Source: Crocinitomicaceae bacterium
GTDB taxonomy: Bacteria; Bacteroidota; Bacteroidia; Flavobacteriales_D; Crocinitomicaceae
Length of the DNA: 64,000 nt
Direction: 5' to 3'
Assembly: GCA_024643545.1 (NCBI GenBank)
Contig: JAHEMR010000012.1
Coordinates: 1 to 64,000, forward strand
Under the pieces are notes generated by a model, which made no database searches, was not told where the DNA came from, and saw nothing but the letters and a program-made list of their open reading frames with translations. The translations under genes were made by a program, and so were the position numbers. Below, piece by piece: positions 1-3,150 of the stretch. Every line of letters begins with the position of its first letter. Positions within the stretch are counted from its first letter, which is position 1.

Positions 1-4
1 GCAT

Positions 5-33
5 AAAAAAACCCTGACAGTATCGTCAGGGTT
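5..33 (-). terminator. Rho-independent terminator of tRNA-Met
   Basis: Read on the minus strand this is a perfect 9-bp stem (AACCCTGAC pairs with GTCAGGGTT) with a 6-base loop, followed by a run of seven T. It starts 4 bases after the 3' end of the tRNA, so it ends that transcript. Confidence 0.9.
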
Positions 34-37
34 CTAG

Positions 38-111
38 TGGTCCCACACAGGCTCGAACTGTGGACCCACAGATTATGAGTCTGTTGCTCTAACCAACTGA
101 GCTATAGGACC
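38..111 (-). tRNA. tRNA-Met (CAU anticodon)
   Basis: The minus strand folds as a full cloverleaf. The 7-bp acceptor stem is GGTCCTA/TGGGACC with one T-G pair, and the discriminator base is A. The anticodon stem ACAGA/TCTGT closes the loop CTCATAA, giving anticodon CAU, and the T arm carries GTTCGAGC. The 3' CCA is not encoded. The acceptor stem is fully paired at position 1-72, which favours an elongator Met tRNA. A tRNA-Ile2 with a lysidine-modified CAU cannot be excluded by eye. The region upstream of its 5' end is very unusual (see the tandem repeat). Confidence 0.93.
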
Positions 112-363
112 GGGTTACATTTAAGTAACGGTTATAAATCTTTGTCGTCCTGTAGCGAAGTTGCTTGTCCCGTCGTTACGGGAAGCTATAGGACCGGGTT
201 ACATTTAAGTAACGGTTATAAATCTTTGTCGTCCTGTAGCGAAGTTGCTTGTCCCGTCGTTACGGGAAGCTATAGGACCGGGTTACATTTAAGTAACGGT
301 TATAAATCTTTGTCGTCCTGTAGCGAAGTTGCTTGTCCCGTCGTTACGGGAAGCTATAGGACC
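101..363. repeat. Three tandem 84-bp units copying the tRNA 5' end
   Basis: Identical 84-bp units begin at 101, 185 and 269, and an 11-bp partial fourth copy lies at 353-363. On the minus strand each junction is GGTCCTATAGC, the first 11 bases of the tRNA-Met gene. The other 73 bases hold the hairpin CCCGT-AACG-ACGGG, the sequence GCTACAGGAC (able to pair with the tRNA-derived GTCCTATAGC at 9 of 10 positions) and the palindrome GTTAC-N6-GTAAC just before the next copy. As 84 is a multiple of 3, a spurious open frame crosses the array on the plus strand. Either the tRNA start was duplicated together with its leader, or a 73-bp element was inserted three times with an 11-bp target. Confidence 0.92.
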
Positions 364-391
364 GGTTACAATGCTGTAACGTATTGGTTCG

Positions 392-421
392 CAAAAATAG
401 TAATTTCTTCCTTTTTTCAAA
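392..421 (-). promoter_or_regulatory. Promoter for the tRNA-Met transcript
   Basis: The minus strand carries TATTTTTG (392-399), a perfect match to the Bacteroidota -7 element TAnnTTTG, and TTTG (418-421) 18 bases upstream as the -33 element. Transcription would start near 386, before all the tRNA 5'-end copies, so the repeats would be part of the precursor. A GTTAC-N6-GTAAC palindrome follows at once. Confidence 0.7.
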
Positions 422-434
422 GGAAAGAAGGTAT

Positions 435-1358
435 CTATTTTTGATTTTGTTCAGAAGATAACATCGCCTGAATCTGCTTCATGGTTTTTTGCATGCCTTC
501 CGCGCTGCCGTCCAGGAAGATGGTGTTTCCTTTTCCGTATTCAGCGAAATTCTTGATGGCTTCTGTCCACATGGAGAAAAGGATTACGTTCGTGTCCAAG
601 TTTGCTTGCTTCATTTCTTCTGCCGCTTCGCTCATTCCTTTTGCTACCTCTTGACGGAATAAAGCCACTCCTTGTCCACGTAACATCGCTGCTTCTTTCT
701 CAGCTAATGCAGCGATTTTAATCGCGTTTCCTTCTGCTTCTGCTGCTTTGGTTTTAGTGATCAATAAGGCTTGACCTTCATTCTCTGCAGCTGCTTTTAA
801 GTTGTTCGATGCAACAACTTTACTCATGCTCTCAATGATCGCTTGGTCAAAGGTGATGTCGTTGATCTGTAAATCCAATAAATGGTATCCCCACGTTTCT
901 AAGGTGTGGTCAATTTGATTTTTCACACTTTCAACTAATTCGTGACGCAAACCAAGGATTTCAGATTGTTTCTGACTCGCTACATATGCACGAATCGATC
1001 CTTCAATGGTACGAATCAAGGCCTGCATTAAATCTTTGTTGCTGATGAATTTAAACGCGACTTTTTTAATGGTTTCTTCTTCTGCGTCCATCACACTGTA
1101 CAACAACATGCTTTTGAAATACACATTGGCTTGGTCAATGGTTACAGCTTGGAATTCCATTTCGATGCTTTGATTTTGAATGGAAATACGTCGGTACACT
1201 TGTTCCAAAAATGGAATCTTCATGCGGAGTCCGGGCGTTAAAATCCGTTGGTATTTGCCGAAAAGGGTAATTACGGCAATGGTTCCTTGAGTGATGGTTA
1301 ATAAGGAACTAAAAACGATGGCAAGTCCAATTCCTAGGACAATGTAAACAGCAGTCAT
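435..1358 (-). CDS. SPFH/band 7 (stomatin-like) membrane protein
   Basis: A 307-residue protein with one N-terminal membrane segment (about residues 5-27), then an SPFH domain starting at the phrase GTIAVITLFGKYQRIL, then a charged alanine/glutamate-rich coiled coil (about 190-240) typical of stomatins and prohibitins. Such proteins oligomerise in the inner membrane and organise membrane microdomains or control proteases; no specific substrate can be read here. No NfeD partner is adjacent, as is often found with bacterial SPFH genes. The ATG is followed directly by the membrane helix. A near-consensus -7 element (TACATTTA) lies shortly upstream, so it may have its own promoter. Confidence 0.85.
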   Translation of the reverse strand: MTAVYIVLGIGLAIVFSSLLTITQGTIAVITLFGKYQRILTPGLRMKIPFLEQVYRRISIQNQSIEMEFQAVTIDQANVYFKSMLLYSVMDAEEETIKKVAFKFISNKDLMQALIRTIEGSIRAYVASQKQSEILGLRHELVESVKNQIDHTLETWGYHLLDLQINDITFDQAIIESMSKVVASNNLKAAAENEGQALLITKTKAAEAEGNAIKIAALAEKEAAMLRGQGVALFRQEVAKGMSEAAEEMKQANLDTNVILFSMWTEAIKNFAEYGKGNTIFLDGSAEGMQKTMKQIQAMLSSEQNQK

Positions 1359-1410
1359 ATGCGTAAATTTTAGTTAAATGTAGGAATATTCTTCCTTGGA
1401 AACAAATGAA

Positions 1411-2547
1411 TTACTTTTCCTCTTTCCGTAAGGTGAAATGCGTGATTTCTGGGTAAATTCCTACACGTCCTGGAAAACCCAGGAAGCCAAATCCACGATT
1501 AACATATAAGTATTGTTTGCCAACTTGATAAAGTCCTGCCCATTTGCGGTATTTGAAGGAAACGGGACTGAATTTAACTCCAAAGCGCTCGATTCCGAAC
1601 TGCATTCCATGCGTATGTCCTGAAAGTGTTAAGTCTATGTCTGTATCTAGTACCTGCGCATCAAAGTGACTCGGGTCATGGGACAATAACAGTTTGAAAG
1701 CACCCGTTGGGACTTTCGCTAAGGTGTCACTTAATTTACCACTTTGACGAAAAGGTGCTTTTCCCCAGTTTTCAACGCCTAAAAGCCAAAATCCTTCACT
1801 TAACTCGACAGCATTGTTCAATAAAGGTTGAAATCCAATGGATTCATGAATGCGAATGAGCTTGGTTAAATTCGCTTGTTTTTCGTCTTGCTCATTCCAT
1901 TGTACATAATCGCCATAATCATGATTGCCAAGAATGCTGTATTTTCCTTTTTTCGCTTTTATGGATGAGAAAATAGGTTCCCAACCATGCATTTCATCGG
2001 CTTTGTTATTGACTAAATCACCCGTAAAAAACACATAATCCGCATCCTGTGCATTGATCAAATCGATGGCTTTCTGAACTTTGTGATAGCGGTTTAAGAA
2101 ACTTCCCACATGCACATCGCTGATTTGAATAAAGCGCAGTCCATCAATTGCTTTAGGTAAATTTGGATAGGAAATCGTTACATGGTGAACTTTCCAGTTC
2201 CATCGTCCGAATTGAATTCCGTATAAAATACCTAGGAATATTCCTACAGAGAAGATCCAACCAATGTATTGTAAATAGGGGAGTCCGAGTAGTAAGTAGG
2301 AAAGTCCTGGAATCAAATATACAAGCGCTGGAATTCCGGACGCAATGAACAAGCCCATGTAGGTGAACACCAAGCGATAATCTGCGTTTTGAGAGCGACG
2401 TCGAAAGTTAAAGAATAGTAATCCTACACTAGCAATGAATACGAATCCTTGGAATCCAGCTAGGACATACAAGGAATGTTCAATCAATCCGTGAAGGAAG
2501 ATCCATTCAGCGACAATGATTAAAAGGAGAGAGAAAATAAAAATCAT
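1411..2547 (-). CDS. Membrane-anchored metallophosphoesterase
   Basis: The 378-residue protein starts with about four hydrophobic segments (residues 1-115) and ends in a calcineurin-like phosphoesterase domain. The metal-binding blocks are in order: ISDVHVG, FFTGDLVNNK, LGNHDYG, LLSHDP and SGHTHGMQ. This architecture matches the YaeI/YkuE group, whose members hydrolyse phosphodiester or pyrophosphate bonds at the membrane face, for example in lipid metabolism. The substrate is not known here. It lies 45 bp after the aldolase gene on the same strand and may be cotranscribed. Confidence 0.86.
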   Translation of the reverse strand: MIFIFSLLLIIVAEWIFLHGLIEHSLYVLAGFQGFVFIASVGLLFFNFRRRSQNADYRLVFTYMGLFIASGIPALVYLIPGLSYLLLGLPYLQYIGWIFSVGIFLGILYGIQFGRWNWKVHHVTISYPNLPKAIDGLRFIQISDVHVGSFLNRYHKVQKAIDLINAQDADYVFFTGDLVNNKADEMHGWEPIFSSIKAKKGKYSILGNHDYGDYVQWNEQDEKQANLTKLIRIHESIGFQPLLNNAVELSEGFWLLGVENWGKAPFRQSGKLSDTLAKVPTGAFKLLLSHDPSHFDAQVLDTDIDLTLSGHTHGMQFGIERFGVKFSPVSFKYRKWAGLYQVGKQYLYVNRGFGFLGFPGRVGIYPEITHFTLRKEEK

Positions 2548-2592
2548 GTCAAGTTTTTGAAGAAGTAAATAAGGAGGAAAGGTGACTGAGAA

Positions 2593-3150
2593 TTACATCC
2601 AAGATCCACCCACGGAGATGATATTGTCCATCGCTAAGTAATCGGAATGCGTTTCTTCGGTAATTCCGCCCGTTGGACAAAATTTCACCGCTGGAAATAC
2701 TTGACCGTATGCTTTCAATGCAGCGAGTCCACCGAATAAGTTTGCCGGAAAAAATTTGAAGGTATCCCAACCAAATTGCAATCCTTCAATGATTTCACTT
2801 GGTGTTGCAACTCCGGGAATAAACGCGATTCCGCTCGATTCAAATGCTGGTGCAAGTGTGGCATTTAATCCTGGACTCACCATGAAGTCAATTCCTAATT
2901 CCACCGCTTTGTCAATTTGACTCACGGAAACAACCGTTCCCATTCCAATGGAACAACGAACTCCATACAATCTTTTCGCTTCAGCAATACAATCAAAAGC
3001 AGCAGGTGTGCGCAACGTGATTTCAATACAGAATATCCCATCGGCGATTAATTGTTCCATTTTTGGAGCTACTTCTTCAACCGAATGAAACGTTACTACA
3101 GGAATAACTGGGTGTTTGGAAAGTACTGCGCGGATGTTATTTTGTTTCAT
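2593..3150 (-). CDS. eda: KDPG/KHG-type aldolase, short C-terminus
   Basis: A class I aldolase of the 2-dehydro-3-deoxy-phosphogluconate / 4-hydroxy-2-oxoglutarate family. Visible catalytic features are Glu43 and Arg47 in EITLRT, the Schiff-base Lys132 in FKFFPA, and the phosphate-binding end GGITEE and GGSW. The start at 3150 (MKQNNIRAVL) fits the family; an in-frame extension upstream lacks homology. The protein is 185 residues against the usual 205-215, because the stop follows GGSWM directly, so the last helix is missing. No 6-phosphogluconate dehydratase gene is in the window, so the substrate is uncertain. Confidence 0.83.
   Translation of the reverse strand: MKQNNIRAVLSKHPVIPVVTFHSVEEVAPKMEQLIADGIFCIEITLRTPAAFDCIAEAKRLYGVRCSIGMGTVVSVSQIDKAVELGIDFMVSPGLNATLAPAFESSGIAFIPGVATPSEIIEGLQFGWDTFKFFPANLFGGLAALKAYGQVFPAVKFCPTGGITEETHSDYLAMDNIISVGGSWM

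Follow-up and report, generated by a model that had tools for sequence, protein, structure and literature searches.

Tandem units bearing the 5′ end of tRNA-Met in the leader of a Crocinitomicaceae tRNA gene: a possible 5′-end version of tRNA-linked repeats

The DNA analysed here, referred to as the window, is a 64,000-nucleotide stretch that forms the first 64 kb of contig C15 in the draft genome of a Crocinitomicaceae bacterium (G000; 2.75 Mb in 38 contigs). At its very start a tRNA-Met gene occupies the minus strand at 37-111, so that the tandem array at the higher coordinates stands 5′ of the tRNA. The features of the locus are as follows.

1..36, minus strand: terminator adjoining the tRNA-Met 3′ end; together with the tRNA 3′ end it is repeated in the 104-bp units that lie outside the window, at one end of contig C33
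37..111, minus strand: tRNA-Met(CAT), from ARAGORN and the Rfam tRNA model (68.6 bits); the functional gene, whose nt 1-11 (F) are 101-111
112..195, minus strand: unit nearest tRNA-Met, 84 bp, from exact-repeat comparison (match E 4e-38); F copy 185-195, hairpin 157-184, F reverse complement 147-156, spacer and leader copy 112-146
196..279, minus strand: second unit; F copy 269-279, hairpin 241-268, F reverse complement 231-240
280..363, minus strand: outermost unit; F copy 353-363, hairpin 325-352, F reverse complement 315-324
364..391, minus strand: native leader of the GTTACAATGCTGTAAC type, before the array; its homologue in G037, G030 and G047 is an uninterrupted leader
392..421, minus strand: probable promoter, TATTTTTG (392-399) and TTTG (418-421), spacing 18 bp

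The tandem units bearing the tRNA-Met 5′ end are confirmed as real: three exact 84-bp units and a 13-bp remnant fill positions 100-365, between tRNA-Met and the probable promoter. TRF reports a period of 84 with 3.2 copies (99% matches, score 535, span 100-370), and an exact-repeat search of the window returns a 98-nt repeat three times (starts 100, 184 and 268, identity 100%). The recurrent unit with the tRNA 5′ end as its junction, and its three exact copies, stand as given in the preliminary description of this DNA; the remnant, put there at 11 bp, shares at least 13 bp, AGCTATAGGACCG. Read in the sense of the tRNA, each unit consists of F (GGTCCTATAGC, tRNA nt 1-11), a 28-bp hairpin segment (TTCCCG..CGGGA..ACTTC), an arm, GCTACAGGAC, that is a 10-bp reverse complement of F with one mismatch, a spacer, and a copy of the leader with its own hairpin (GTTAC..GTAAC). 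Bacteroidota promoters follow a consensus of the -7/-33 type, and the pair TATTTTTG/TTTG, judged from its letters, is probably a promoter fitting it; the same pair also precedes the arrays of relatives. Because this likely promoter lies beyond the array, the units should be transcribed within the pre-tRNA leader. An Rfam scan of window positions 1-3000 returned the tRNA and a sub-threshold antisense match of Plastid-ycf2 on tRNA-Met. Matches of this model below its cut-off fall on antisense tRNA strands at window 37-111 and in E. coli alike.

Queried against its own genome, the unit has full-length matches at the tRNA-Met locus only, the next match being 17 bp long (E 0.126). The pattern TTCCCG..CGGGA..CTTC occurs six times in the genome, always flanking tRNA-Met: three times in the 5′ array and three times, inverted, on the 3′ side, so that mirror-image units stand on both ends of one tRNA. 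On contig C33 the 3′ units, 104 bp long, consist of the tRNA-Met 3′ end (GCCTGTGTGGGACCAC) repeated from nt 59, the terminator, CAGGC, and GAGAAG with a hairpin. This contig starts with 53 bp identical to window 1-53, which places the assembly break inside the 3′-side repeats, and since short reads can miscount a 252-bp exact array, the copy number of three is not certain. A Zeta-toxin-like gene and a small reading frame lie past the outermost 3′ repeat (L084, 381-1107).

With all six pattern matches at tRNA-Met, a dispersed mobile core can be rejected. The 73-bp mobile element with an 11-bp target duplication that had been suggested at the outset finds no support: its core is undispersed, the repeated end differs by tRNA, and each unit holds a reverse complement of that end. 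Nor does a transposon with a target-site duplication describe the unit, which holds the neighbouring tRNA's own end together with its leader or terminator. Viral contigs contained none of the exact 5′ unit patterns, and the 24 matches of the 3′ core found there had no tRNA within 1.5 kb, so these pattern searches lend no support to a phage origin.

Relatives carry the locus with none to three units. We searched 86 genomes of the genus for the locus and counted the 66 members in which the 5′ flank reached 100 nt or more; four extra loci, one of which duplicated G079, had been taken out, and G008 was counted through an F-like match beside a different palindrome. One to three units lay within 330 nt of the tRNA 5′ end in 23 of the 66, and the same expressions found none in 43, these unit counts being lower bounds. 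A copy number fixed in every relative, named beforehand as an observation that would tell against the first interpretation, is therefore not what the genus displays. In G037, G030 and G047 the orthologous loci are unit-less, with the neighbouring gene kept and the leader uninterrupted, which is the state that the preliminary description had proposed to look for in close species. Across relatives the tRNA-Met units measure 66-115 bp; their hairpins vary and the order of parts is constant. G048, G025, G076 and G074 have the unit body in common whereas their native leaders before the array differ from it and among themselves, which argues against local duplication alone and against the duplicated tRNA leader first considered. 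The mean difference per 84 bases is 1.7 within arrays (13 pairs) versus 5.35 between species (158 pairs), in keeping with the recent formation or homogenisation already proposed for the identical copies. The arrays of G072, G056 and G045 have position-specific variants in common, and unit 1 of G072 is identical to unit 2 of G056. When named genomes were scanned for F plus TTCCCG, 25 stretches came up, of which 19 match contigs of the genus in length; three others (L109, L116 and L124) have the unit at tRNA-Met, and the remaining three (L105, L106 and L127) are presumed chance matches. On the 3′ side of tRNA-Met in G045, G048, G067 and others, a common sequence, CAAGTGGGGATTTTGGC.., follows the tRNA; read by eye, it is in some relatives the end of a reading frame resembling a large serine recombinase.

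The same layout is found at other tRNAs. Among Flavobacteriales the 17-mer GCGAGAAGTYTATSCCG is present in 25 of 399 genomes and 16 of 70 genera. A tRNA lies within 1.5 kb at 11 (two of them overlapping) of the 18 new loci read; the others comprise two with a matching tRNA-like end at a contig edge, one with tRNA-Gln 7.5 kb off, one inside a reading frame without a repeat, two at a protein gene and one with the end of an unassigned gene. Within the genus, allowing one mismatch, the 17-mer was found in 20 of 86 genomes, with a tRNA at 8 of 15 loci read. A downstream copy of the tRNA's own 3′ end is present at 21 of 100 tRNA loci, a non-random set, as against 17 of 2594 control pairs with another tRNA's end. 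Such repeats occur at Ala (6/6), Asn (3/5), Gln (2/3), Lys (2/2), Val-TAC (2/2) and Met (6/74) loci, and at none of the eight Arg, His, Leu and Val-GAC loci together. The junction of the 3′ units is TTCGA/GCC in the host T-loop (nt 58/59) and GGKAA/GCC in the units, and a block of identity runs from this fixed tRNA-loop point to the tRNA end, as in integrase-generated att arrays (IME/CIME). 5′ units are again seen at tRNA-Ala(GGC) of G033, G078 and G074 (L204, L215 and L222), in one, two and three copies, along with 3′ units; they measure 51-56 bp, with the hairpin replacing the D-loop and framed by nt 1-12 and approximately nt 20-27. Because the 5′-end copy test is loose (control 290/2594), these tRNA-Ala 5′ units rest on our reading of the sequence. 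In G237 (L258, L270, L281-L284) a SpoIIE-like phosphatase gene has its 3′ end repeated in tandem, with a hairpin of the same family and the break TTCGA/GC.

Does the arm follow the tRNA end that it accompanies? In 31 units, chosen by hand from 54 rows along with 5′ units and loci added later (only rows with a visible F were kept; one left arm was padded by a letter) and including related species whose kinship the shuffling ignores, 204 of 310 arm positions pair with the unit's own F versus 144.9 (sd 8.2) after shuffling, and none of 20000 shuffles reached as high. Without the first four positions, which are common, the same 31 units give 86 of 186 versus 51.9 (sd 6.4), again with no shuffle of 20000 as high. 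The weak rows are G269 (3/10) and G015 Met, G031, G088 and G048 (4/10 each), and both G000 and G028 have a mismatched arm. In equilibrium folding the acceptor stem of the real tRNA-Met has a predicted pairing probability of 0.993 without a unit versus about 0.0005 with one to three, a drop that follows from the ability of the arm and the tRNA start to pair: with a shuffled arm the probability averages 0.107, with a shuffled spacer it is 0.003. The idea that the arm shields tRNA folding was rejected, this outcome being the opposite. The modelled loss of folding may reflect an effect on tRNA supply, or it may be a sign that co-transcriptional folding matters.

We propose that the 5′ array consists of non-autonomous units that arose by recombination at conserved sites in tRNA loops and were then amplified by unequal exchange, a reading for which our confidence is evenly balanced. 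That the array is a 5′-end version of tRNA-linked repeats for which no cellular function is needed is held with the same middling confidence. On this view each unit would start with a tRNA 5′ end that has broken off; a hairpin caps it, and the reverse complement of the same end and a leader copy come next. In a first step, recombination at one constant position within the tRNA gene would join a unit bearing the same tRNA end; the junctions themselves are visible and would put this point in the D-arm for the 5′ version (TGA/GC, antisense) and in the T-loop for the 3′ version (TTCGA/GC, between nt 58 and 59). As the joined unit carries the same tRNA end, the tRNA would stay whole and the old end would be left outside the hairpin. 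Secondly, repeated joining, or unequal exchange of units, would give rise to the tandem arrays of variable copy number that are observed, and thirdly, homologous exchange would keep the units of one array alike, as the similarity within arrays indicates. The units encode nothing; a recombinase, probably of the type found in integrative elements whose targets are tRNA loops, would act or have acted in trans.

Several observations count for this recombination: the exact tRNA-specific junctions, an F that matches the neighbouring tRNA, a copy number of 0-3, unit bodies unlike the native leaders in some species, and the covariation of arm and F. In G085 the left half of the hairpin comes from one tRNA-Met type and the right half from another, as after a crossover, and this too counts in its favour. 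An element of about 7.4 kb in G088 (contig C5; L272, 3283-10900) carries a Pfam Phage_integrase gene and sits in a tRNA-Gln T-loop junction; on its other side is the displaced tRNA-Gln 3′ end and then one hairpin unit, and at its right junction a 7-bp arm, CTAGGGC, lies 54 nt before GCCCTAG. This one case ties the unit layout to integrase-type recombination. Other observations count against recombination. No dedicated recombinase was found in the source genome, where a profile search detected two Phage_integrase genes, both taken for putative Xer proteins; none of the 5′ units seen had cargo; loop length in the hairpin ranges from a few to about 50 nt, which would be strange in a double-strand recombinase site; a single hairpin family goes with many different tRNA ends, as ordinary integrase cores do not; and 5′ and 3′ unit numbers are often unequal (0/2, 0/3, 3/0), with the units in no viral contig.

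Genes adjoin the units or displaced ends at several loci, encoding Zeta-toxin-like (G000), GIY-YIG (G044), Fic (G046 and G072), nucleotidyltransferase/HepT (G072), AAA/DUF4143 (G020) and AbiEii (G075) products. An end copy on both sides of the adjoining gene is found in G069 and G044 only. In the former, a reading frame related to the Zeta-toxin-like gene sits between two F copies; in the latter (contig C33; L139, 1541-2150), the GIY-YIG gene has tRNA-Met on one side and on the other a displaced tRNA 3′ piece, which begins in the anticodon stem, with the palindrome TTCCGATAGCTATCGGAA replacing the loop.

The simplest alternative, plain tandem duplication of an old leader and tRNA start by slippage or unequal crossing over with no insertion event, is in our opinion unlikely. 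It agrees with the near-identity of units within arrays, the differing copy number among orthologous loci and the variants common to the G072, G056 and G045 arrays; nevertheless, it accounts for amplification and not for the hairpin, the reverse complement of F or the recurrence at other tRNAs and at 3′ ends, and the unit bodies of G048, G025, G076 and G074 are unlike the native leader. Distinctly unlikely is hairpin-primed template switching, whereby a strand would fold at the hairpin, copy the arm into F and rejoin its template with no recombinase. The arm always ends at the start of F, as self-templated copying would give, and loop length varies, but a hairpin kept between unrelated tRNAs and species (GCGAGAAGTYTATSCCG, in the Flavobacteriales genomes counted above) must be copied or moved between loci, and the approximately 10 nt between arm and hairpin would need to be skipped every time.

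A third possibility, very unlikely in our judgement, is that a resident tRNA was split in the middle by a whole incoming tRNA gene with leader and terminator, the resident's old 5′ end now lying upstream and its old 3′ end downstream. Equal 5′/3′ numbers in G000 (3/3), G020 (1/1) and G015 (1/1) would follow from such nesting, as would 3/3 at G074 tRNA-Ala provided that one degenerate 3′ hairpin counts, and the outermost 3′ piece of G085 comes from another tRNA-Met type than the inner gene. The strict form, in which both counts must be equal, is contradicted by eight loci: G047 (0/2), G037 (0/1), G033 Met (0/2), G031 Val (0/3), G085 Ala (0/3), G048 (2/0), G072 (3/0) and G046 (2/0). We think it highly unlikely that the array acts on tRNA-Met supply, its leader units competing with cloverleaf folding or being cut by RNase P. 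The predicted collapse of acceptor-stem pairing speaks for this; against it, 43 of the 66 genus members have no unit seen, the arm is mismatched in two genomes, equilibrium folding ignores co-transcriptional folding and tRNA modification, and the 3′ units stand behind terminators.

It is a long shot, too, that the unit is an addressable insertion module of a layout common to Bacteroidota and E. coli, with a conserved GAGAAG...hairpin scaffold, a 5-10-nt guide arm complementary to the insertion point, and a structure- or guide-directed enzyme placing units at either tRNA end; if that were true, the window's 5′ array would be the first such module observed to target the 5′ end of a tRNA. An assembly artefact is barely credible: position 1 of the window is a contig end and the assembly breaks in the 3′ repeats, but many separately deposited assemblies have one, two or three copies, some of them inside long contigs (G020, 650 kb; G072, 128 kb).

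How do the units proposed to result from recombination compare with known systems? In integron attC sites, two nested inverted arms enclose a variable loop, the sites form tandem arrays, some with cargo genes, and a conserved outer core is recognised by IntI. Such sites resemble the units in arms, variable loop, tandem arrays and occasional cargo genes; they differ in that the outer arm of the unit varies with the target tRNA and is not a fixed core. A search for an integron integrase found none. REP/RAYT elements likewise have a short hairpin with a conserved tag beside it, unlike the window units in being dispersed, and were rejected because there is neither dispersal nor an intact RAYT gene in the source genome; the only Y1_Tnp (RAYT-like) match (L102, G000 contig C11, approximately 92.7 kb) has an internal TGA, and no unit-type hairpin was seen beside this pseudogene.

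The tRNA-linked repeats (TLRs) of E. coli have been known since 1978. Among 49 tRNAs in twelve K-12 stretches we found 13 extra 3′-end copies, at tyr, lys and arg, all starting at nt 59, in a survey that left out eight tRNA entries without a recognised T-loop and missed the 5S repeat. In three tyr units the complementary arm is 10 bp long and leads into GAGAAG, the hexamer also found in the Flavobacteriales 3′ units; an arg unit has 8 bp of arm and then AACGTTGC. In four lys units and a further arg unit the arm is 5 bp, for which chance is possible, and four units have no arm of at least 5 bp. The common GAGAAG, being a single case, is suggestive only. Like the window units, TLRs (rtT/RttR, tyrT operon, Rfam RF00391) stand in tandem beside a tRNA, each with that tRNA's end, and the one to three copies seen here lie within the TLR range of one to five per locus at a tRNA or rRNA gene. 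Like the Flavobacteriales 3′ units, they break at nt 58/59 and have a complementary arm before the hairpin. TLRs, however, are downstream and bear the tRNA 3′ end, whereas the units of the window bear the 5′ end and are part of the leader. A 2021 Front Microbiol article (PMC8144298) counts 22 E. coli TLRs at ten loci, defines them by 18-19 bp identical to the upstream RNA 3′ end, and describes those of tRNA operons as without known function.

The 3′-side units of tRNA-Met agree with that 3′-end definition (GCCTGTGTGGGACCAC, 16 nt, CCA not encoded). The Rfam RtT model gave no match in window 1-3000 or at the Flavobacteriales loci L064, L203 and L218; in E. coli (L291) it gave four above the gathering score. 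The Flavobacteriales 3′ units thus fit the wording of the TLR definition and not the RtT model. The 5′ units of the window do not have the defining 3′-end feature and carry the tRNA 5′ end, and we therefore call them a 5′ counterpart working alike, not TLRs. A literature search largely without subscription papers turned up neither 5′ units nor Bacteroidota TLRs, which agrees with the initial remark that use of a tRNA 5′ end would be unusual. According to PMC3146451, Dehalococcoides islands are inserted in the ssrA T-loop in tandem, some without integration genes, and resemble the units in T-loop insertion, displaced 3′ ends as direct repeats and tandem accretion, a parallel that counts for the recombination reading; they differ in carrying genes and 20-bp repeats, while the units here are gene-less, 51-115 bp long and include 5′ ends.

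The comparison suggests that the break at nt 58/59, the hairpin and the arm complementary to the repeated tRNA end could define a class that extends beyond E. coli. To this the locus adds a mirror version, placed at the 5′ end of the tRNA within the transcribed leader, together with sister species that have 0, 1, 2 and 3 copies. With these, the origin of tRNA-linked repeats becomes a question that can be answered by comparison of strains and simple genetics.
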